Shown here piece by piece: positions 19,352 to 33,516 of a stretch of DNA of 64,000 nucleotides. Position numbers and translations under genes: made by a program. Source of the stretch: Lysobacterales bacterium (GTDB lineage: Bacteria; Pseudomonadota; Gammaproteobacteria; Xanthomonadales; SZUA-36); assembly GCA_014238945.1 (NCBI GenBank), contig JABAAB010000067.1, positions 1 through 64,000 of the forward strand. Direction: 5' to 3'. Positions within the stretch are counted from its first letter, which is position 1. Each line of letters begins with the position of its first letter. The notes under the pieces are model-generated. The model saw only the letters and a program-made list of their open reading frames with translations. It made no database searches and was not told the DNA's origin.

Positions 19352-20530
19352 TTATGGCAGTTCGACGGCAATTGCAGTAGCTTCGCCGCCACCGTTGCAC
19401 AAAGCCGCCACACCTTTCGACAGTCCTCGTTGTGCCAATGCGTTGATCAGTGTAACCACCAGGCGGGCACCTGATGCCCCTATGGGGTGGCCCAATGCAC
19501 AGGCTCCTCCATTCACATTCATTTGGGAATGTTCGATCTGGTGTTCCTGCATGGCAGCCATGGTTACGGCTGCAAAAGCCTCGTTAACTTCGAACAGGTC
19601 AACCTCGTCAATGCCCCATCCTGCCGTTTCCAATACCCGTGTGATAGCGCCTATCGGGGCGGTGGTGAACCACTCAGGTTCCTGCGAAAACGTAGCGTGA
19701 GCGATGATACGCGCCAGCGGCTTGAGTTCCAGTTCAGCAGCCCTACTGGCAGACATCAGTACCGTGGCTGCGGCCCCGTCCGAGATTTTTGATGAACTTG
19801 CTGCGGTGACCGTGCCATCTTTTTTGAAGGCGGGCCGCAGAGAAGGGATTTTACCGATGTCACACGATGGTGGTTCCTGATCATGGCTGTAAACCACCTC
19901 TCCGCGTCGTGACCGCACGGTAACCGGTGTAATCTCGTTTTGAAAATCTCCGGACATTGCCTTGACTGCGCGGTTAACGGACGCGATAACAAAGTTATCC
20001 TGCTGCTCTCGTGTGAATCCAAATCGTGACGCACAGCGTTCACCGTAGGTACCCATCATCAGGCCTTCATCAGGGTCCTGCAGGCCATCGGTGAACATGT
20101 GGTCCAGGACTTCTCCGTGACCCATACGATGGCCACCGCGAGCCTTGGGAAGCAGATAGGGCGAGCGGGTCATGTTCTCCATACCACCCGCCACGACGAT
20201 CTCCGCTGAACCGGCGATGATCATGTCATTGGCCAGCTGGATGGCTTTGAGTCCGGAACTGCAGACCTTGTTGATGGTCACCGCACCTGCCGCATCGGGT
20301 ATACCGGCTTTACGGGCTGCCAGACGTGCCGGTGCCTGTCCGATACCAGCTGGCAGCACACAGCCCATCAACACATCTTCAACGGATGAACTATCGACAC
20401 CGGCATGCGCAATGGCCGCAGCAATGGCCGCCGCGCCCAGTTCGTCTGCCGGGATATCAGAAAACTGCCCCTGAAAAGAGCCAATGGGGGTACGTTTCGC
20501 ACCCACGATAACCACTTTGTTATTGCTCAA
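19352..20530 (-). CDS. Acetyl-CoA C-acyltransferase (thiolase)
   Basis: [50 protein letters not shown]. Confidence 0.95.
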
Positions 20531-20557
20531 GCTTCTAACTCCGGTTTTTAAAGATTT

Positions 20558-21718
20558 TCAATTATCCAGTGAGACCAGTTCCCGACCGATCAGCATTTTT
20601 CTTATCTCATTGGTACCGGCGCCGATCTCGTACAGTTTGGCGTCACGAAGTATGCGTCCTGCGGGGTACTCATTGCTGTATCCATTGGCGCCCAGGGATT
20701 GAATGGTCTCCAGTGCCACACTGACGGCACTGACGGATGCCTGCAGCAGACACGCAGCCGAATCAACCCGTGAACTGCGTCCGCCATCAAAGTCCGCGGC
20801 TATCCGGTACACATAGGCACGCGATGCCTGCAGGGCCGTATACATTTCGGCCAGCTTGGCCTGCATGATGCCAAATGAACCAATGGCCCGGTCGAATTGC
20901 TTTCGTTCCTGTAGATAGGGCACCACCAGGTCAAGACAGGCCTGCATCAACCCCAGGGGTCCACCGGAAAGTACCAGCCGTTCGGTATCCAGTCCGCCCA
21001 TCAGCAGGCGGACCCCCCGGTTGACCTCGCCCAGTATGTTGGCGACAGGGATTCTGCAATCTTCAAACAGTAGTTCGCAGGTGTTTGATCCACGCATACC
21101 CAGCTTGTCCAACTTCTGTTTCGTGGTATAGCCCGGCATTCCTTTTTCAACCAGGAATCCAGTCATTGCAGCCGAGCCTGCCTGTTTGGCAGCTGTGCGC
21201 ATATATACAATCACCACATCGGCTTCGGGCCCATTGGTAATCCACATCTTTGAACCGTTGGCCAGCCAGTAATCACCCTTCAACTCGGCCTTGCAGGTCA
21301 TGGATCCCACCACGTCCGAACCCGCACCTGGTTCGGACATGGCCAGTGCACCTACCAGATCACCGCTGCACAAGCCCGGTAAATACCTGGCACGCTGGTC
21401 ATCGGTGCCATTCTTGTTCAGGTTGTCCATGCACAGATTGCTGTGTGCGCCATAGGACAGACCCACGGAGCCCGATGCACGGGATATTTCCTCCATGGCG
21501 ACCACGTGGGCCAGGTAGCCGAATTCAGAGCCCCCCAGGGCCGCCGGTATGGTCATACCCAGCAACCCCAGTTCGCCGAACTTGCACCATAAATCCTGGG
21601 GAAAAGAATTTTCAGCGTCTATATCGGCCGCACGTGGTGTGATTTCCTGTGCTGCGAAGCGCTGCACCGTATCACGCAGTAATTCGAGTTCATCGCTTAA
21701 TGGCATTTGTATATTCAC
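20558..21718 (-). CDS. liuA: Isovaleryl-CoA dehydrogenase
   Basis: Acyl-CoA dehydrogenase motifs (LAMSEPGAGSDVVGSM, ERKQFDRAIGSFGIMQAKLAEMYT, YEIGAGTNEIRKMLIGREL) and cluster context. Confidence 0.9.
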   Translation of the reverse strand: MNIQMPLSDELELLRDTVQRFAAQEITPRAADIDAENSFPQDLWCKFGELGLLGMTIPAALGGSEFGYLAHVVAMEEISRASGSVGLSYGAHSNLCMDNLNKNGTDDQRARYLPGLCSGDLVGALAMSEPGAGSDVVGSMTCKAELKGDYWLANGSKMWITNGPEADVVIVYMRTAAKQAGSAAMTGFLVEKGMPGYTTKQKLDKLGMRGSNTCELLFEDCRIPVANILGEVNRGVRLLMGGLDTERLVLSGGPLGLMQACLDLVVPYLQERKQFDRAIGSFGIMQAKLAEMYTALQASRAYVYRIAADFDGGRSSRVDSAACLLQASVSAVSVALETIQSLGANGYSNEYPAGRILRDAKLYEIGAGTNEIRKMLIGRELVSLDN

Positions 21719-21738
21719 AGGATCAGAATGTCCATCCG

Positions 21739-22845
21739 TCAGCTGTTGTTGTTCCGCTCTCGCCCCGGAAAGCGGTGGGGTTTGCCCATGTGGGGCAATT
21801 TGAGTTTACCGATCATCTCGATACGCTCTTCGGCCATGCGGTCCGCCGCTTTGTAGCTTGGAATTTTATCCCTCTCGGCGATGGTGAAAATCTTGCTCAG
21901 ATTGTAATAAATGGTTCTGGACATTCGCAATGCCCGTTCACGGTTCCAGCCTTCAAATTCTATGGAAACGTTCATCAGTCCACCTGCGTTGACAGCGTAA
22001 TCGGGGGCATACAGGATTCCGCGTGCTGCAAGTTCGTCTCCTGACTCTTCCGTGGCCAACTGGTTATTGGCTGCACCTGCAACCACTTTGAAGTTAAACC
22101 TGGGAATGGTTTTTTCATTGACCACAGCACCGAGTGCACAGGGGCTGAAGACATCTGCTTCCACATCGTATATCTCGTCGAGGCCAACTGCTTCAGCACC
22201 CAATTCGACGGCCTCGTCGACACACTCCTTATTGAAATCAGTAACGAAAACCTTGGCGCCTTCATCACGTAACAACCGGATCAGGTTTATTCCGACATGG
22301 CCTGCTCCCTGGACAGCAAAGCTGTAATTGCCCACATCCTGATTGCCAAATTGCCACTGCAGGGCGGCCTTAATACCCTGGAGTGTGCCAAAGGCCGTGT
22401 AGGGGGAGGGATCACCTGAGCCGCCATGTACCTGGTGCACACCGACGACATTATTTGTTTCCTGAAAAAGAAACTCCATGTCATTGACATCAATGCCGAC
22501 ATCTTCCGCGGTAATGTATCGACCATTCAATGAATCTATGAATCGACCGAATGCCCTGAACAATGCTTCTGATTTGTCTTTCCTTGGATCACCTATGATG
22601 ACCGCCTTGCCCCCACCCAGATTCAGTCCTGAAACGGCAGCTTTGTAAGTCATTCCCCTGGACAGACGTAATACATCGTCCAGCGCTTCTTGCTCCGAGC
22701 CATAAGGCCACATACGCAACCCACCCAGGGCGGGGCCGAGCACAGTGTTGTGAATAGCGATAATGGCCTTCAGTCCGGCATCCGCATTGTTGCAAAACAC
22801 GATCTGTTCATGCCGGGTAGAGCCCATTGTTTCAAATAGTTCCAT
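21739..22845 (-). CDS. ldh: Leucine/branched-chain amino acid dehydrogenase (Glu/Leu/Phe/Val dehydrogenase family)
   Basis: GPALGGLRMWPYGSEQEALDDVLRLSRGMTYKAAVSGLNLGGGKAVI; strong RBS ggaggagcaccgATG. Confidence 0.93.
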   Translation of the reverse strand: MELFETMGSTRHEQIVFCNNADAGLKAIIAIHNTVLGPALGGLRMWPYGSEQEALDDVLRLSRGMTYKAAVSGLNLGGGKAVIIGDPRKDKSEALFRAFGRFIDSLNGRYITAEDVGIDVNDMEFLFQETNNVVGVHQVHGGSGDPSPYTAFGTLQGIKAALQWQFGNQDVGNYSFAVQGAGHVGINLIRLLRDEGAKVFVTDFNKECVDEAVELGAEAVGLDEIYDVEADVFSPCALGAVVNEKTIPRFNFKVVAGAANNQLATEESGDELAARGILYAPDYAVNAGGLMNVSIEFEGWNRERALRMSRTIYYNLSKIFTIAERDKIPSYKAADRMAEERIEMIGKLKLPHMGKPHRFPGRERNNNS

Positions 22846-23072: not shown

Positions 23073-23101
23073 TTGACAGGTCAATTTAACAATGGGATAA
23101 A
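23073..23101 (+). promoter_or_regulatory. Sigma70-type promoter for the ilv/leu operon: TTGACA - 17 bp - GATAAA
   Basis: Perfect -35 (23073-23078), 17-nt spacer, 4/6 -10 (23096-23101), just upstream of the leader ORF. Confidence 0.7.
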
Positions 23102-23107
23102 GCCAGC

Positions 23108-23263
23108 ATGTCAAAGTATTTACAGCAACTTTTTATTCGTCCCCAGACCCCCGCCAGCAAGACTCGCGTGGATTTGCGGTTGACTCCGTTGCATGCACAT
23201 TTAGCTCTGCTTCTGCTGCTAGTGATTATTCTCACATCCAGCGGGGTAGCTTTGATCGCATAA
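23108..23263 (+). CDS. Branched-chain amino acid leader peptide, 51 aa (MSKYLQQLFIRPQTPASKTRVDLRLTPLHAHLALLLLLVIILTSSGVALIA)
   Basis: Read directly from sequence (below the ORF track length cut-off); 10 Leu/Val/Ile/Ala codons in a run immediately before an attenuator hairpin. Confidence 0.8.
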   Translation: MSKYLQQLFIRPQTPASKTRVDLRLTPLHAHLALLLLLVIILTSSGVALIA

Positions 23264-23321
23264 GAGAAATACGGTAAGAACAGCAAAAAACCCCGCAACT
23301 GAAAAGAAGCGGGGTTTTTTT
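23241..23321 (+). promoter_or_regulatory. Transcription attenuator: antiterminator segment GCGGGGT (23241-23247) competes with terminator AAAAAACCCCGC/GCGGGGTTTTTT (23285-23320)
   Basis: Identical GCGGGGT copies at 23241 and 23309, both complementary to ACCCCGC at 23290-23296; 3' arm followed by a T9 run. Confidence 0.85.
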
Positions 23322-23358
23322 TTACAGTACCACCAACCGGGAAACCAGGAAGAAAATA

Positions 23359-24369
23359 ATGAAATTGTATACAGAACAGGATGTGCTTCGCGACGCACTA
23401 CAGGACAAGACCATTGCCATACTCGGCTATGGCAGCCAGGGCAAGGCCCACGCACGCAATTTGCGTGATTCAGGCTATGAAGTCATTATCGGCGCGCGTG
23501 CCGGCGGTCCCACGGATGAACTTGCCAGAGCCGACGGTTTTGAGGTGTTGTCCTTCGAAGATGCCACACAAAGGGCGCAACTGATCAGCTTGCTGGTGCC
23601 GGACATGGCACAGCCACAGGTTTTTGAAGCGATAAAGGGGAACCTTGATGACGGGGATATCCTGCTGTTCGCACATGGTCTCAACGTACATTTCGATGCC
23701 ATTGAAGTCCCCGCTGGTGTGGACGTCATCATGATTGCCCCCAAATCACCGGGTGACCTGGTTCGTCGCCAGTATCAGCAGGGCCGGGGTGTGCCCTGTT
23801 TGCGGGCAGTACATCAGGATGCCAGCGGTGCTGCCTCCGAGCGTGCCCTGAGCTATGCCCACGCCATTGGCGGTACCCGCGCCGGGGTGCTTGATACGAC
23901 CTTTGCAGAAGAGACAGAAACCGATCTGTTTGGTGAACAGGCCGTATTGTGTGGCGGCGCAAGTCAATTGGTAATCCAGGGCTATGAAACCCTGGTCGAA
24001 GCTGGCTACCAGCCCGAAGCGGCTTATTTCGAGTGCCTGCACGAATTGAAACTTATCGTTGACCTGATGTATGAAGGTGGTCTCGACAAGATGTATGAAT
24101 TTATTTCTGATACGGCGTCCTATGGAGACCTGGTCTCCGGGCCCCGAATTCTGGATGACTCGGTCAAGGCCCGTATGAAAGAGGTGCTTACCGATATCCA
24201 GGATGGGAGTTTCGCCCGTCGTTGGATGGATGAGTACCAATCGGGCTCGAAAAACTACCAGGGCATGCTGAAAAAACGTCGCGCACACCCGATTGAAGTT
24301 GTGGGTAGAAAGCTGAGGGATCGAATGAGTTGGATTACCAAGTCCAAGAAATCCCAAAAAGCCGCCTGA
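23359..24369 (+). CDS. ilvC: Ketol-acid reductoisomerase (class I)
   Basis: [60 protein letters not shown]. Confidence 0.97.
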
Positions 24370-24380
24370 GACCTGGACGC

Positions 24381-26063
24381 ATGACCGGATCAGCCAAAAA
24401 AGCCGAGGTGCTGCACAGTGGCTCGCAGACGCTGATTGGCGCGTTACAGCGCAATGGAGTAAAGCAGGTCTTTGGCTACCCTGGTGGTGCGATCATGCCC
24501 TTGTACGATGCCCTGGTGGGTTCCGACTTGGAACACTATCTTTGTCGGCATGAACAAGGTGCCGCACTGGCTGCAGATGCGTATGGCCGGATCACCCGCA
24601 AGGCGGGTGTGTGTATCGCGACATCCGGCCCTGGTGCCACCAACCTGGTAACCGGGATCGCCAACGCTTTCATGGATTCAGTCCCCATGGTGATTATCAC
24701 CGGACAGGTTCCCACCGCATTACAGGGCACGGATGCTTTTCAGGAAGTCGACATTTTTGGAATCACCTTGCCGATCGTCAAGCACAGCTACATATTGCGG
24801 GATGTTGCCGACGTTGACGGTGTTGTCGACGAGGCTTTTCAACTCGCCCAGGGCGGTCGCCCCGGTCCTGTACTGATTGATTTCCCGAAGGATATCGCCA
24901 CGGCCGTGACAGCACAATCCCGTTATGTGCCAGAGGCCGACTACCAGGCTCCGATACTGGATGTGGTGGCGGTGCAGGCGGCCACTGACATGCTTTCCAA
25001 GGCCAGGCGTCCCTTGATCATCGCCGGTGGTGGCATTGCGATATCAGATTCGATCCGTTCTTTCAGAGAATTTGCCGCCCGCACCGGTTTTCCGGTTGCG
25101 GCAACCCTCAAGGGGCTCGGTGTCCTGCCTACGGATGACCCGGGACTGGTCGGAATGCTGGGTATGCATGGTAATGGTGCGGCCAACCATGCGGTACAGA
25201 ACTGTGACGTGCTGATGGTGGTTGGCGCTCGATTTGATGATCGGGTTACCGGCCATCTGGCCCAATTTGCACCGTCGGCGCGGGTAATTCACCTGGACAT
25301 TGACCCGGCTGAAATTTCCAAACTGCGTAAGGCGGATATTTCGATCATAGGTGAACTGGGACCTGCACTGGATGGAATCCGGCTAAGAGGGGCCGCCAGC
25401 GCCTCGTGGCGTGCCCAGTGTGATGCCTGGAAGAAGGAGTTTGCCTGGCGCTACGACGCACCGGGTGATGGTATTTATGCCCCCGGATTGTTGCGTGAAT
25501 TGTCGCTGGCACGGAAGGGCAAAATGACCATCACCTGTGATGTGGGACAGCACCAGATGTTCGTGGCACAACATTGTCATTTCGAACATCCACTGGATCA
25601 CATATCTTCCGGTGGTCTGGGTACGATGGGTTATGGCTTGCCGGCAGCCATCGGTGCAAAAATTGCCCGGCCGGATTCCACCGTCGTGTGTGTATCAGGT
25701 GACGGATCCATCATGATGAACATCCAGGAACTGGCTACCCTCAAGCGCTATGGATTGTCGGTCAAGATCGTATTGCTCGACAACTCCGCCCTGGGTCTGG
25801 TCAGACAATGGCAGGAGATATTTTTCCAGGGCAATTACAGCGAGGTTGATCTGTCCGACAATCCGGATTTTGCCGCGGTTGCGGCCGCCTTTGGAATTGC
25901 CTCACGCACCATCAACAGGCCTGCAGAGGTTAGCGGAGCAATACAGTGGTTACTGGACCAGCAAGGACCTGCACTATTGCATGTGCCCATTGATCCACTC
26001 GAAAACGTGTGGCCACTGGTTCCACCGGGCGCAGCCAATCACAAAATGATGAAGTCAAAGTAG
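24381..26063 (+). CDS. ilvB: Acetolactate synthase large subunit
   Basis: FGYPGGAIMPLYDAL, RHEQGAALAADAYGR, TSGPGATNLVTGIANA, GDGSIMMNIQELATL. Confidence 0.97.
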   Translation: MTGSAKKAEVLHSGSQTLIGALQRNGVKQVFGYPGGAIMPLYDALVGSDLEHYLCRHEQGAALAADAYGRITRKAGVCIATSGPGATNLVTGIANAFMDSVPMVIITGQVPTALQGTDAFQEVDIFGITLPIVKHSYILRDVADVDGVVDEAFQLAQGGRPGPVLIDFPKDIATAVTAQSRYVPEADYQAPILDVVAVQAATDMLSKARRPLIIAGGGIAISDSIRSFREFAARTGFPVAATLKGLGVLPTDDPGLVGMLGMHGNGAANHAVQNCDVLMVVGARFDDRVTGHLAQFAPSARVIHLDIDPAEISKLRKADISIIGELGPALDGIRLRGAASASWRAQCDAWKKEFAWRYDAPGDGIYAPGLLRELSLARKGKMTITCDVGQHQMFVAQHCHFEHPLDHISSGGLGTMGYGLPAAIGAKIARPDSTVVCVSGDGSIMMNIQELATLKRYGLSVKIVLLDNSALGLVRQWQEIFFQGNYSEVDLSDNPDFAAVAAAFGIASRTINRPAEVSGAIQWLLDQQGPALLHVPIDPLENVWPLVPPGAANHKMMKSK

Positions 26064-26084: not shown

Positions 26085-26366
26085 ATGAACCACAGCCTGA
26101 AAATTCAGTTGCGAAACAATGAAGGGGCCGTTTTAAGGGCACTGGGATTAATGGAGCGCAGGGGGTTCATGCTGGAGAGTTGCACTGTTTCTGAAGCAGA
26201 GGGTGAGCGGCGGTCCATGACCGTTGCGGTCAGTTCCACACGACCGGGTGACCTGCTGAAACGGCAACTGGAACGGTTACATGACGTGCTGCAGGTGGAA
26301 CTGCGTGCTGCCGTCACCAATGAGAGAAAAGTTCCGGGCTTACGACCGGTTACCAGGAGAATTTGA
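26085..26366 (+). CDS. ilvM: Acetolactate synthase small subunit, short IlvM-like ACT protein (93 aa)
   Basis: Position directly after ilvB; ACT-like sequence ALGLMERRGFMLESCTVSEAEGERRSMTVAV. Confidence 0.8.
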   Translation: MNHSLKIQLRNNEGAVLRALGLMERRGFMLESCTVSEAEGERRSMTVAVSSTRPGDLLKRQLERLHDVLQVELRAAVTNERKVPGLRPVTRRI

Positions 26367-27911
26367 ATGGCCAGGAAGATTCACATATTTGACACCACCC
26401 TCAGGGACGGAGAGCAAAGTCCCGGATTCAGTATGAGCCTGGGTCAGAAGCTAAAGGTCGGTCACGCACTGGCAGAGATGAAAGTGGACATCCTTGAGGC
26501 CGGGTTCCCGGCAGCATCACCCGGTGACTTTGACGCCGTTCGTGCTATTGCGACCGAAATTGAGGGCCCGATCATTACCGCATTGTGCCGTACCATTCCC
26601 CGGGATATTGAATTCGCCGACAGGGCACTGGAACCGGCAACCCGCTCTCGGATACACACTTTTATCGCCACCAGTCCCATCCACCGTCGTGACAAGCTCA
26701 ATATGAGTTGTGATGAAGTGCTTCGCCACGCCGTCAATGCCGTAAACATGGCAACCGAAATCTGTGATGATGTTGAATTTTCAGCGGAGGACGGTATCCG
26801 CACCGAAAGAGAATTTCTCGCAGAGATTTTGCAGGCCGCAATCGAGGCCGGTGCAGGTACGGTGAATATTCCGGATACCGTGGGATACGCGACCCCGTCA
26901 GAAGTGTATGACCTGTTCCGCTGGTTGATAAAAACCGTGCCGGGTATAGAAAACGTGCGTGTCAGTACCCACTGCCACGATGACCTGGGTCTGGCAGTAG
27001 CCAATTCACTGGCGGCAGTAGAAGGTGGCGCCACCCAGATTGAATGTGCCCTCAATGGTATAGGCGAGCGCGCCGGTAACTGCGCGCTCGAGGAAGTGGT
27101 CATGGCACTCAGGACCCGGGCAGACCGATTTGACTGCGAGACAGGAATCGACACCCGTAGATTTGCAGCGGGCAGTCATTTGCTGGCCGCCGTTACCGGA
27201 AACTTTGTACCACGCAATAAGGCCATAGTCGGGGAAAATGCCTTTGCCCACGAAGCAGGAATACATCAACACGGCATGCTGGCATCGAGTGAAACTTACG
27301 AAATAATGAAACCCGAGGATGTGGGGGTACAGCATTCTCAGCTGATCCTGGGTAAACACAGCGGACGACACGCGGTAGTGGACCGGGCACGGGTGATGGG
27401 ATATCAACTCGAAGAAGATCAACTGGACGATATCATGATCCGCTTTAAAGACTTGGCGGATCGCAAAAAACGGGTCTTCGACTCAGATCTCGAAGCCATC
27501 ATAACGGGCAGCCAGACCCATACCAACGGGCCGTGGTCGCTGAACTGGCTGAGTGTGGTAAGCCGGGTTAATGGAGAATCCGAACCCATGGCGTCACTGA
27601 CACTGGCGCATCAGGACGGGACCACCAGCACCCATACAGGCGAAGGTGACGGGCCGGTTGACGCGATCGTGCATGCACTCGAACAGGTGACCGGTACCCG
27701 CATCAAGGTACTGAGCCTGGCCATGCGCAGTATCTCACTGGGTGAGGATGCCCAGGGAGAAGCCAGCTTGCGTGCCACAGTTGATGGGGTTGAATACAGT
27801 GGTCACGGTTTATCCACCGACATCGTTGCGTCCTGTGCGGAAGCCCTGTTGGAAATCGTAAACCGTGCCATTCGCTATAGCACTGAGATCAAGCAGTCCA
27901 ACGCTGCCTGA
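26367..27911 (+). CDS. leuA: 2-isopropylmalate synthase
   Basis: IFDTTLRDGEQSPGFSMSLGQKL, STHCHDDLGLAVANSLAAVEGGATQIECALNGIGERAGN. Confidence 0.97.
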   Translation: MARKIHIFDTTLRDGEQSPGFSMSLGQKLKVGHALAEMKVDILEAGFPAASPGDFDAVRAIATEIEGPIITALCRTIPRDIEFADRALEPATRSRIHTFIATSPIHRRDKLNMSCDEVLRHAVNAVNMATEICDDVEFSAEDGIRTEREFLAEILQAAIEAGAGTVNIPDTVGYATPSEVYDLFRWLIKTVPGIENVRVSTHCHDDLGLAVANSLAAVEGGATQIECALNGIGERAGNCALEEVVMALRTRADRFDCETGIDTRRFAAGSHLLAAVTGNFVPRNKAIVGENAFAHEAGIHQHGMLASSETYEIMKPEDVGVQHSQLILGKHSGRHAVVDRARVMGYQLEEDQLDDIMIRFKDLADRKKRVFDSDLEAIITGSQTHTNGPWSLNWLSVVSRVNGESEPMASLTLAHQDGTTSTHTGEGDGPVDAIVHALEQVTGTRIKVLSLAMRSISLGEDAQGEASLRATVDGVEYSGHGLSTDIVASCAEALLEIVNRAIRYSTEIKQSNAA

Positions 27912-27930: not shown

Positions 27931-28893
27931 ATGAAAGAACCCGCTACAATTTGGCACAACGGTGAGTTCAAGCCATGGCATGAAGCGACAACGCATGTTT
28001 TGTCACATGCGATCCATTATGGCTCAAGTGTATTCGAGGGCATCAGGGTGTATGACTGTCTTGGCACCCCCAAGGGTTTCCGGATGCGTGAGCACCTGGA
28101 GCGTCTCTATGACTCGGCCAAGGTCTATCGATTCGAGATTCCATACCCCATTGACACATTATTTGATGCCTGCTGCAGCCTGGTGTTACGCAACGGGTTG
28201 AACAGCGCTTACCTCAGACCTGTGGCCTTCAGGGGCTATGGTTCCCTTGGTGTCGCACCCAAGGATCCGCCACCGATAGATGTCGCGATTGCTGCACTCG
28301 AGTGGGGGGCCTACCTGGGTGACGAGGCACGTGAAAAAGGGGCAAGGGTCTGTGTATCCAGTTGGAACCGTGTCGCGCCCAACACCATACCTGCGGGTGT
28401 AAAGGCCGGGGGTAATTACCTGTCCAGCCAGTTGATCAGTATGGAGGCCCACCGGCTTGGATTTGATGAGGGAATTGGCCTGGCGCCTGATGGAACGCTG
28501 AGTGAAGGGTCAGGTGAAAATCTTTTCATGGTCAAGGACCATATTCTGATTACACCGCCACAGTCCGCTTCGATCCTGGCTGGAATTACCCGCGACAGTG
28601 TGATTCGCCTCGCCCATACCCTGGGTCTTGAAGTCCGTGAAATCCCCTTGTCGAGAGAAGCACTGTATCTGGCAGATGAATTGTTTTTCACCGGTACGGC
28701 AGCCGAGATTACACCGATCAGGTCGGTGGATGACATTGACATTGGCATTGGCCGTTGTGGCCCCATAACCGGTCAGATCCAAACTGCGTTTTTTGGATTG
28801 TTCGATGGTCAAACCGTGGACCGATTAGGCTGGCTGAATGCAATTGAAGATTCCGTTTCAATGGAAAGTGGGGCCAGCAGTGTCTGCGCCTGA
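27931..28893 (+). CDS. ilvE: Branched-chain amino acid aminotransferase
   Basis: [50 protein letters not shown]. Confidence 0.95.
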
Positions 28894-30298
28894 AACGCTT
28901 TTTGAAAAACTGTGGAACGCCCACCTGGTCAGATCACAAAGCGATGACACACCGGCGATTATTTATATAGACCTGCATCTGGTACACGAGGTGACCTCAC
29001 CGCAGGGTTTTGACCTGCTGCGGGAAAGGAACATTGCTGTGCGCAGGCCCGACCTGACCCTTGCTACGATCGATCACTCGACTCCGACCCTTCCGGCGGA
29101 TGAAGATGGCAACAGACCATACATCACCGGGCAGGCCCACCAGCAAGTCAAAACCCTCAGAAAAAATTGCCGGGATTTTGGTGTTGAACTGCATGACTGG
29201 GACAGCCCTTATCGTGGTGTGGTCCATGTGATGGGCCCAGAGTTGGGTGCTACCCAGCCGGGAATGACCATCGTGTGCGGTGACAGCCATACCAGCACAC
29301 ACGGTGCGTTTGGCGCATTGGCATTTGGAATCGGTACCACCGAGGTGGGCCATGTGCTGGCAAAGCAATGCCTGTTGCAGCTTAAGCCACGCTGTATGCT
29401 CATCAAGGTTGAGGGAGAACTGGGCGCCGACGTCGGCGCAAAAGACCTGGCGCTGCATATCATCCGACATCTGGGTGTCAATGGGGGTACCGGGTGCGTC
29501 ATTGAATATGCTGGAAGTGCTGTTCGGGGCCTGGATATGGAAGGTCGCATGACATTGTGTAATATGACCATTGAGGCCGGCGCACGCGCCGGTATGATCG
29601 CAGCTGACCAGGTGACTATCGATTATCTTCGTGGCCGGCCCAGGGCTCCAAAGGGGCCGGCTTTTGAACGTGCCGCGGCGCAGTGGCGAAAGTTTTTCAC
29701 CGACCCGGACGCGCATTTTGATTTCCACGTGGACATAGATGCCTCGTCGGTGCGACCCACCATCACCTATGGTACGGATCCGGGCATGTCGGTGAAGATC
29801 GGTGAACCCCTGCCAATACCCACCAGTGAATCCCAGCAAAAAGCCCTCGATTACATGGATTTTCAGGGTGGGCAGTATTTGAATGAACGAAAAGTGGACC
29901 TGGTGTTTGTGGGTAGTTGCACCAATGGACGTCTCAGCGATATGCGTGCCGCAGCCGGGGTCCTGAAAGGGAATCAAATTGCATCGCATGTGCGTATGCT
30001 CGTGGTTCCGGGTTCGGAACACGTGCGCTGGCAGGCAGAGGCCGAAAACCTGCACCGGATTTTCGAGTCTGCCGGTGCCGAGTGGCGATTGCCGGGATGT
30101 TCCATGTGCCTGGCCATGAACGGCGATATTGTTCCACCCGGTAAAACAGCGGTATCGACATCCAACCGGAATTTTGAAGGCCGGCAAGGGGCGGGTTCGC
30201 GTACCCTGCTGGCCAGTCCTGAAACTGCGGCGGCCTGCGCTGTACTGGGTCATGTTGGCCGGGCAGTGGACCTCGAGAACGTGAAAGAAGTCACGTGA
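28880..30298 (+). CDS. leuC: 3-isopropylmalate dehydratase large subunit (probable GTG start)
   Basis: [67 protein letters not shown]. Confidence 0.97.
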
Positions 30299-30882
30299 AA
30301 CAGGCATTCAAACGCCTGACGGGCCCCGTCCTGGTGCTGGCCCAGGAAAATATCGATACCGATCAGATCATCCCGGCAAGGTTCTTGACCGCCACAGATT
30401 TTGACGGTATTGGAGAGCACGCATTTGCCGACTGGCGTCATGATGCCAATGGTGACCCCATCCAAGGTCATGTACTCAACACGCCCCGTGCCCGGCAAAG
30501 TCCGATATTGGTGGGTGGTCGTAATTTTGGTTGTGGATCGTCGCGGGAACATGCACCGCATGCCCTGCTGGGTTTTGGTTTCAGAGTGGTTATCAGTTCA
30601 CAAATCGCCGATATATTCAGGAACAATGCACAAAATGTGGGTCTTTTGCCGGTGGTGCTTGAACCCGAGCAACATGTCCGGCTGATGAATATGGATGGTG
30701 CAGAAATCACCGTTGACCTGGAGCAGTGCTGTGTGATTGCTGCAGAATCGGATGGTCAACACAGTCGCTGGCCATTTGCCATGGACGGGTTCGCTCGTCA
30801 TTGTCTGTTGCTCGGTCTGGACAGGCTGGACTTCCTGGACCGTGCCGAGACCGATATCCGGGCCTATGAGAACAGATTATGA
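30295..30882 (+). CDS. leuD: 3-isopropylmalate dehydratase small subunit
   Basis: [35 protein letters not shown]. Confidence 0.97.
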
Positions 30883-31958
30883 GTGTACGTATTACTCTGC
30901 TCCCCGGTGATGGTATCGGTCCCGAGGTCACCACACAGGCTAAGATGCTGATATCCGCCCTGGCTGATGACTATGGACTCAGCCTGGAGATGGAAAGTGC
31001 ATTGGTGGGCGGTGCCGCCATCGATGAAAAAGGTGATCCACTGCCAGCAAAAACCCTGGATACCTGCCGCAGGTCGGATGCCATCATACTGGGTGCCGTG
31101 GGTGGCCCAAAATGGTCCGACCCGAATGCACTTGTCCGTCCCGAACAGGGTCTATTGAAACTGCGCAAGGAACTTGGTCTGTACGCCAATCTCAGACCGG
31201 TCCGTGTCCATCCGAAACTGTTCGCAGCCAGTCCGTTGAAGCCGGAATACCTGGATGGCGTCGACCTGGTCGTGGTACGGGAATTGACCGGTGGAAGTTA
31301 TTTTGGGGAAAAGGTGGAAGGTGACAAATTCGCCATGGATTCCTGTACCTACACCCGTGAGGAGGTCGAACGGGTAGTGGTCCGGGCGGCGCACCTGGCC
31401 CGCTCACGAAGCGGCCGGCTGACGATGATTGACAAGGCCAACGTCATGGCCACATCACGGCTGTGGCGTAAAGTGACCGTCGAGATCATGGAATCACAGT
31501 TTCCAGATGTGAAGTGCGACTATTTGCTGGTAGATGCGGCGGCCATGTTCCTGATGTCAAAACCTGCATCCTTCGATGTCATCGTGACCGAAAACATGTT
31601 TGGGGACATTTTGACAGATGAGGCTTCCATGCTGGTCGGTTCCATGGGTATGTTGCCTTCGGCATCGTTGGGGAGCGGCAGTTTTGGCTTGTATGAGCCC
31701 ATTCATGGCTCCGCACCTGATATCGCGGGCAAGGGCATTGCCAACCCCCTGGGTATGCTGGCATCGGTCGCCATGATGTTTGAGCACAGTCTTGACATGG
31801 TTGAAGCGGCTCGCCGGATCGAGTCTGCCATCCACCAATGTATTTCCAGCAATGAATGTACGCCCGACCTGGGTGGTAACCTGTCTACCGGACAGGCGGG
31901 TGCAGCGGTACGTAGCCGTCTGGACGGGTATATTCCCACCGGGGTGGCACATGGGTGA
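30879..31958 (+). CDS. leuB: 3-isopropylmalate dehydrogenase
   Basis: LLPGDGIGPEVTTQA, AVGGPKWSDP, VVRELTGGSYFGEK, YEPIHGSAPDIAGKGIANP. Confidence 0.97.
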   Translation: MSVRITLLPGDGIGPEVTTQAKMLISALADDYGLSLEMESALVGGAAIDEKGDPLPAKTLDTCRRSDAIILGAVGGPKWSDPNALVRPEQGLLKLRKELGLYANLRPVRVHPKLFAASPLKPEYLDGVDLVVVRELTGGSYFGEKVEGDKFAMDSCTYTREEVERVVVRAAHLARSRSGRLTMIDKANVMATSRLWRKVTVEIMESQFPDVKCDYLLVDAAAMFLMSKPASFDVIVTENMFGDILTDEASMLVGSMGMLPSASLGSGSFGLYEPIHGSAPDIAGKGIANPLGMLASVAMMFEHSLDMVEAARRIESAIHQCISSNECTPDLGGNLSTGQAGAAVRSRLDGYIPTGVAHG

Positions 31959-33516
31959 TATGGCACAGGAATGTTTACGTAATGCATTGACCTCCCCGGT
32001 TTACGATCTGGCACGTCGCACGCCTCTGGAAGCCGCGCCGGCGTTGTCCGGACGTATCGGCCACAAGTTGTGGCTTAAACGCGAGGATCTGCAGCCTACC
32101 TATTCTTTCAAATTACGCGGTGCATATAACTGCATCAGTCAACTGGACCCCGAGGTACGCAAGTCGGGGGTGGTGGCGGCATCGGCCGGTAACCACGCTC
32201 AGGGTGTGGCCCTGTCGGCACGGGAACTGGGGATCACGGCAACCATTTTCATGCCCCGAACGACTCCTGAAATCAAGGTCAGTGCCGTGGCCGACCTGGG
32301 TGCCCGTATTCAATTGACCGGTGATGACTATGACGAGGCCTGTGCCCAGGCACTGGAATTCAGCCGGGTGAGTGGCCGGTTTTTCGTCCACCCTTTCAAT
32401 GATCCACAGGTCATTGCCGGGCAGGGCACGCTGGGTATAGAAATCACCCAGCAACTCACAAATCAACCCGGTGTGATCTTCTTGCCGGTGGGTGGCGGTG
32501 GTTTGGCTGCGGGTGTTGCCGCGACGGTGAAGGCAGTACATCCCGCGGTCCGGGTGGTCGGTGTAGAACCGGAGGACGCAGCCAGCATGAAGGCCGCCCT
32601 GGCAGCAGGTCAGCCCGTTGATATTGGCGCGACAGGTATGTTTGCGGATGGGGTTGCAGTGCGCAAGGTTGGAAAAACCAGCTTTGAAATGTGCCAGGCA
32701 TTACTGGATGAGGTGATTACCGTCAGTGTCGACCAGGTTTGTGCTGCGGTGAAATCCATTTTTGAAGAAGTACGTGCGGTGGCCGAACCGGCGGGTGCGT
32801 TGTCGGTGGCGGGTGCGATTCAGTACGCTGCCCTGAAACAGGAAGATGAATTGCCGCGGGGTGACTGGGTTGCAGTGGTCAGTGGTGCCAATGTCAACTT
32901 TGACCGTCTTGGACACGTGGTGGAGCGCTGTGCATTGGGTGATGGCAAGGAGGTCCTGTTGGCGGTCAACATTCCGGAGCGCCCTGGCAGTTTCCTGGAA
33001 TTTTGCAGCGCTTTGGGAGAGTCATCGGTGACCGAATTCAACTACCGCTATGCGGGAAGTGGCGATGCACATGTATTTGTCGGCGTCCGTCTGCAGGAGT
33101 CGTCACGTCACCTGCAGGATCGCCTCACGGGACTGGGCTACCCGTTGACGGATCTTTCCACCAATGAGGTCTCCAAGCTGCACATTCGCCACCTGGTGGG
33201 TGGCCGATTGCCATCCAGCAAGCGTGAGAGATTGTTCCGTTTCGAGTTTCCTGAACGCCCGGGTGCATTGCTTGAATTCCTGAGCGTGCTCGCAGGGCGA
33301 TGGTCCATTAGCCTGTTTCACTACCGCAATCACGCGGCCGCCAATGCGCGCATTCTGGCAGGATTCCTGGTGCCACCCGGGGATGACGTGGCCTTTGGCC
33401 GTTTTCTGGAAGAAACGGGTTACCGATTTACCGATGAAACCGATAATGCCGCATGTCGGGCATTCCTGTCTGCACCAGAAGCCCTGGTGCAGCAGGTAAA
33501 ATCAGCGGCTGTCTGA
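31951..33516 (+). CDS. ilvA: Threonine ammonia-lyase (dehydratase), biosynthetic, with C-terminal ACT-like regions
   Basis: LWLKREDLQPTYSFKLRGAYNCI, ASAGNHAQGVALSA, VGGGGLAAGVA, duplicated ERPGSFLEFC / ERPGALLEFL. Confidence 0.96.
   Translation: MGDMAQECLRNALTSPVYDLARRTPLEAAPALSGRIGHKLWLKREDLQPTYSFKLRGAYNCISQLDPEVRKSGVVAASAGNHAQGVALSARELGITATIFMPRTTPEIKVSAVADLGARIQLTGDDYDEACAQALEFSRVSGRFFVHPFNDPQVIAGQGTLGIEITQQLTNQPGVIFLPVGGGGLAAGVAATVKAVHPAVRVVGVEPEDAASMKAALAAGQPVDIGATGMFADGVAVRKVGKTSFEMCQALLDEVITVSVDQVCAAVKSIFEEVRAVAEPAGALSVAGAIQYAALKQEDELPRGDWVAVVSGANVNFDRLGHVVERCALGDGKEVLLAVNIPERPGSFLEFCSALGESSVTEFNYRYAGSGDAHVFVGVRLQESSRHLQDRLTGLGYPLTDLSTNEVSKLHIRHLVGGRLPSSKRERLFRFEFPERPGALLEFLSVLAGRWSISLFHYRNHAAANARILAGFLVPPGDDVAFGRFLEETGYRFTDETDNAACRAFLSAPEALVQQVKSAAV

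Follow-up and report, generated by a model that had tools for sequence, protein, structure and literature searches.

The 64,000-nucleotide stretch of DNA analysed here (the window), from a member of the order Lysobacterales/Xanthomonadales, contains what is very probably (probability roughly 0.92) a ribosome-mediated transcription attenuator for branched-chain amino acids (BCAA), heading an ilvC-ilvG-ilvM-leuA-ilvE-leuC-leuD-leuB-ilvA operon, with a predicted leaderless leader mRNA. Attenuators of BCAA operons are commonplace among Gram-negative bacteria. The switch would thus be of a known kind and unusual in one respect, its conserved and predicted leaderless leader. The initial annotation of this DNA had proposed a leader-peptide attenuator of a nine-gene ilv/leu operon, a proposal strongly supported by the comparative evidence, the antiterminator/terminator pairing and a sharply switching stall model. 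The elements are as follows.

23073 to 23078, plus strand: -35 box TTGACA; TTGAC(A/T) occurs at the same distance in 37/37 related leaders
23096 to 23101, plus strand: probable -10 box GATAAA, with an extended TG ahead at 23093-23094 (spacer geometry; congeners are alike)
23108 to 23263, plus strand: 51-codon ORF of the leader peptide, with a predicted leaderless start; similar leaders occur in relatives
23207 to 23233, plus strand: regulatory codon run Leu5-Val-Ile2-Leu, codons 34-42 (42 marginal), from the per-codon stall model
23241 to 23247, plus strand: segment 2, 5' arm of the antiterminator core, GCGGGGU, with a distal GCU at 23249-23251 (P(2:3) = 0.99 with a ribosome stalled in the run; conserved)
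23285 to 23296, plus strand: segment 3, terminator 5' arm AAAAAACCCCGC (pairing, folding, relatives)
23309 to 23323, plus strand: segment 4, terminator 3' arm GCGGGGTTTTTT at 23309-23320 plus the T-run (sequence; terminator covariation)

The leader ORF runs base-exactly from the ATG at 23108-23110 to the TAA at 23261-23263, and its 51-codon peptide reads exactly as initially quoted. Leucine, valine and isoleucine account for nine residues of a ten-residue stretch, a feature kept in relatives. Between the leader ORF and ilvC lies an intrinsic terminator, a 12-bp stem and then a T-run; the two arms had been recognised before, and further T residues follow them. The repeat of the terminator 3' arm inside the leader was also correctly identified, GCGGGGT being exact at 23241-23247. 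Within segment 3, ACCCCGC (23290-23296) doubles as the antiterminator 3' arm, with the distal AGC directly upstream. The antiterminator consists of two parts, a GCGGG/CCCGC core and a distal helix that varies by family while its pairing is kept (GCU/AGC in the own genus, CGA(A)/(U)UCG in family f2). The sequence GGGGTAGCTTTGATCGC at 23243-23259 is identical in all five congeners despite differing flanks, a constraint that exceeds the need for core pairing; it also makes the distal antiterminator arm. The hairpin at 23285-23320 was overlooked by a simple terminator scan because this accepts no loop longer than 8 nt, and the single-sequence folding z-score of the attenuator region was only -1.98.

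A further motif, CCCCGC at 23149-23154, had been suggested as a segment 1 able to sequester segment 2. The motif is present, but the role is not upheld: its pairing probability with segment 2 is about 0.04, and as a conserved segment 1 it was rejected, since none of the four congeners has it in its leader. The analysis revealed no conserved 1:2 pause hairpin. As long as segment 3 has not been transcribed, segment 2 pairs preferentially with the Leu codons at 23209-23216 (P approximately 0.5-0.93, for this genome's own sequence only).

The genes downstream of the terminator were assigned as follows.

23359 to 24369, plus strand: ilvC, ketol-acid reductoisomerase (NCBIfam TIGR00465 / NF004017)
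24387 to 26063, plus strand: ilvG-type acetolactate synthase large subunit (NCBIfam NF006524)
26085 to 26366, plus strand: ilvM, acetolactate synthase small subunit, 93 aa (ORF; position and tblastn conservation in relatives)
26367 to 27911, plus strand: leuA, 2-isopropylmalate synthase (TIGR00973)
27931 to 28893, plus strand: ilvE, branched-chain aminotransferase (TIGR01122)
28838 to 30298, plus strand: leuC ORF (TIGR00170, match from residue 18); the true start probably lies about 15 codons further inside
30295 to 30882, plus strand: leuD (TIGR00171)
30879 to 31958, plus strand: leuB (TIGR00169)
31954 to 33516, plus strand: ilvA, threonine ammonia-lyase (TIGR01124)

These assignments agree with the initial ones, eight through matches to NCBIfam models and ilvM by position and tblastn conservation; the gene first called ilvB is of the ilvG type, its best model being the acetolactate synthase 2 catalytic subunit. 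Neighbouring genes are separated by 0-21 nt or overlap, and promoter-like and terminator-like matches inside the operon stay at shuffle level (7 versus 6.6 and 8 versus 10.1, respectively). All nine genes would be co-transcribed. The same gene order is found in those genomes of the own family (f1) whose loci are complete, both with and without ilvD ahead. The ilvD of this genome lies elsewhere, away from the operon (G000:C79:39321-41102, L201), and adjoins an apparent aminotransferase gene; visual inspection of the portion of that locus that was read revealed no leader. On the minus strand, positions 19352-22845 of the window hold a divergent gene of the Glu/Leu/Phe/Val-dehydrogenase family, then genes for an acyl-CoA dehydrogenase and a thiolase; this set may serve BCAA breakdown and is transcribed away from the biosynthetic operon.

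RNA folding with constrained ribosome positions, which the initial annotation had named as a check, yielded the antiterminator with the ribosome stalled in the codon run but not past it. Each codon was placed in the A site, the transcript was masked up to 9, 11 or 13 nt past that codon, and the remainder was folded to 23308, at which point segment 4 has yet to emerge. The probability of 2:3 pairing was 0.99 with the A site at Leu34 to Ile40, 0.49-0.99 at Ile41 and 0.00-0.70 at Leu42; for every position between Thr43 and the stop codon, inclusive, it was 0.00. According to this model, a stall at codons 34-41 would permit the antiterminator, whereas a ribosome at the stop codon or anywhere from Thr43 onwards would prevent it, giving a sharp switch. 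The stalling range first given, codons 34-42, is right overall, although Ile41 is less secure and Leu42 marginal. In every case folded with segment 4 included, the terminator prevailed at equilibrium, and the switch must therefore be kinetic, like known attenuators. Without a ribosome the antiterminator is also favoured as long as segment 4 has not been transcribed (P = 0.66), so that some translation-independent read-through is predicted. When the leaders of the ilvC-headed cases were cut at the edge of the stalled ribosome, segment 3 paired with the leader in 24/24 cases folded (P 0.80-1.00); a shuffled-leader control was clearly beaten in the own genus and at some f2 loci, but the margin was weak at the other loci, which are G+C-rich.

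In the mechanism that we propose, transcription would begin at the A of the leader ATG or no more than about 3 nt away from it, and a ribosome would load onto the leaderless 5' end. With charged Leu, Val and Ile tRNAs plentiful, the ribosome would reach the stop codon at 23261 and cover segment 2; segment 3 would then pair with segment 4, and transcription would terminate before ilvC. Scarcity of any one of these tRNAs would stall the ribosome within codons 34-41 and leave segment 2 free to capture segment 3 ahead of segment 4 synthesis, in which case no terminator would form and the operon would be transcribed.

The distribution of the element was examined by searching for IlvC, first in 61 genomes of the order and later in 300, and scanning the upstream regions. 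A strict scan recovered a leader and terminator ahead of ilvC in 22 of 99 regions and missed two further f2 loci; these 24 ilvC-headed cases fall in f1, f2 and f7. Leader, antiterminator segment and terminator together occur at the head of ilv/leu operons in 37 genomes from five families of the one order, ahead of ilvC in 24, as here, and ahead of ilvD in the 13 where ilvD precedes ilvC. Many ilvC regions gave no leader, and in most of those displayed ilvC directly follows the IlvD C-terminus (IlvD was recognised by a translated motif, then by an IlvD N-terminal motif). The ilvD-headed cassette (13 genomes, in f1, f2, f4 and f9) comprises a BCAA-rich leader, a gap of approximately 20-28 nt (51 in one genome) and a CCCGC/GCGGG terminator. 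The cassette thus sits before whichever gene heads the operon, ilvC or ilvD. No such element was seen at several ilvC/ilvD loci of the order, namely, among those checked upstream of ilvD, all in f11 and f12 and one in f9. Two f11 ilvC matches carry an in-frame stop (G072:C68 and G078:C329; TGA and TAG), and these are either assembly errors or decayed genes. Attenuator-like BCAA-rich leaders with terminators were also observed in a Planctomycetaceae MAG (L079, 9257 and 9615, close together) and in an alphaproteobacterial MAG (L082, 9789), none with the fixed TTGAC.

Recurrence of the same layout in related genomes counters the idea of a chance occurrence, and comparison with the ilvC upstream regions of relatives, also named initially as a check, found both the leader and the alternative pairing conserved. 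Base-pair changes were counted on 31 distinct sequences. Pattern matching served to place the cores of segments 2, 3 and 4, and the invariant GCGGG/CCCGC core adds nothing to the covariation scores. For the terminator, 88.7% of cells were paired, with 15 double changes and a score of 0.151 versus 0.053 in shuffles (0/500); for the antiterminator the corresponding values were 72.9%, 7 double changes and 0.061 versus 0.037 (5/500). Sliding the antiterminator register lowered pairing to 30-46%, compared to 72.9% in register. An earlier count on 23 sequences had shown no excess of antiterminator double changes, and the excess appeared when ilvD-headed and other loci were added. Covariation thus appears clear for the terminator and modest for the antiterminator, with the support coming from flanking pairs only.

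The promoter ahead of the leader has a 17-nt spacer, a 6-nt discriminator and a predicted transcription start at A23108, a layout shared by the congeners. The start of TTGAC(A/T) lies 35-38 nt from the leader ATG in 37/37 genomes (10 at 35, 17 at 36, 9 at 37 and 1 at 38), where the ATG is the in-frame one nearest 35 nt and the genomes are related, hence not independent. The motif is TTGACA in 35 of these leaders and TTGACT in 2, and it stands at that distance from just 5 of the 2353 ATGs (0.2%) in the window. C or T precedes the leader ATG in 35/37, and either base is common just before transcription start sites with A at +1. No Shine-Dalgarno sequence precedes the leader ORF described here, and a GGAG-like motif within 18 nt ahead of the ATG was found in 2/37 only. 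Because the distance from the -35 box to the ATG is fixed and a Shine-Dalgarno is mostly lacking, we predict a leaderless leader mRNA, with transcription starting at the leader ATG. This feature appears to be new here; the initial annotation did not remark on how close the promoter lies.

It is unlikely, if still worth weighing, that the attenuator operates as described within an ordinary 5' leader made from another upstream promoter. The -10 hexamers of f2 are weak (2-4/6 matches), which makes the exact start site in that family uncertain, and a consensus scan called no promoter anywhere in the window, its rule demanding T at the last -10 position. Such a promoter would, however, not account for a TTGAC(A/T)-to-ATG distance held at 35-38 nt in five families while the intervening sequence diverged, nor for the 35/37 leaders without a Shine-Dalgarno. 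We accordingly favour the leaderless start, and quite probably these loci form a class of BCAA attenuators that extends across the order Lysobacterales/Xanthomonadales, defined by a leaderless leader mRNA, a promoter fixed relative to the ATG and a cassette before the ilvC or ilvD that heads the operon. In a check of whether leaderless leaders are general, no His-rich leaders were found before hisG in relatives.

The leader itself could in principle encode a small functional membrane peptide, with the hairpin merely its terminator. The C-terminal half, LALLLLLVIILTSSGVALIA, is strongly hydrophobic, the run resembles a transmembrane helix, and congeners, which share the layout, keep the end (S/N)GVALIA. 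However, the N-terminal half has diverged even among congeners, and neither it nor the overall length (24-53 aa) is conserved across relatives. What is kept is the offset of the Leu/Val/Ile run from segment 2, which is similar throughout, and the association with the operon head, be it ilvC or ilvD. Segment 2 moreover can pair with the terminator arm across families despite encoding different residues (SGV, GAG) or, in f7, being located just 3' of the stop codon, where a ribosome at the stop still covers it. A membrane peptide is therefore very improbable. Least credible of all is control of the terminator by a riboswitch or protein-binding antiterminator with an incidental ORF: any ligand could in principle drive a 2:3 versus 3:4 switch, but no Rfam family matched the attenuator region at gathering score (Leu_leader, RF00512, reached 17.6 bits against a gathering score of 50), the reading frame and Leu/Val/Ile run are kept in 37/37, and segment 2 lies within the cover of a stop-codon ribosome even in f7.

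As an attenuator, the element shares with those of E. coli ilvGMEDA and leuABCD its Leu/Val/Ile regulatory codons, an intrinsic terminator and the choice between antiterminator and terminator by ribosome position. It differs in RNA sequence and structure, in heading a nine-gene operon that joins ilv and leu genes, in having no evident 1:2 hairpin and in its predicted leaderless start without a Shine-Dalgarno; its leader, at 51 codons, is also longer than the E. coli BCAA leaders of 32 and 28 aa (PMC6123439). As summarised in that article, Vitreschak et al. 2004 (FEMS Microbiol Lett 234:357) used comparative analysis to predict leader peptides, with terminators, ahead of the BCAA genes of various Gram-negative species; as far as the summary extends, those proteobacterial attenuators likewise rest on a comparatively recognised leader peptide and terminator before BCAA genes, and the study may already list Xanthomonas-type ilv operons. 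Nothing relevant was found in a search for Xanthomonas-specific attenuation literature. Leaderless attenuation has been described for S. meliloti trpL, whose transcript begins at the leader ATG and which attenuates an amino-acid operon (PMC7298713), and for Streptomyces lividans ilvL upstream of ilvBHC, which has a leaderless leader peptide (PMC8079986). Both resemble the present case in a leader ORF controlling an amino-acid operon by attenuation, and both begin at the leader ATG, as is predicted here, but they belong to another class or phylum, precede other operons and encode peptides of 13-14 aa. The open-access literature searched yielded no leaderless BCAA leader in Gammaproteobacteria, which is weak evidence of novelty. 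The Corynebacterium ilvBNC uORF and the ilvB-II and ilvB-OMG motifs (PMC10272879) similarly combine a BCAA-rich uORF with a terminator/antiterminator ahead of ilv genes; they are different RNA motifs, described ahead of ilvB in bacteria that include Corynebacterium, and the Corynebacterium uORF is much shorter (15-17 aa versus 51 codons).

In this organism the attenuator would place the BCAA pathway, minus ilvD, under one switch that responds to three amino acids. The synchrony of initiation with RNA polymerase in attenuation has been worked out mainly on Shine-Dalgarno leaders. If the leader is indeed leaderless, it would offer a natural and conserved setting for such synchrony where initiation takes place at an emerging 5' end. 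The fixed spacing further suggests that leader ORFs in this order may be located from the spacing between promoter and ATG instead of from a ribosome-binding site.
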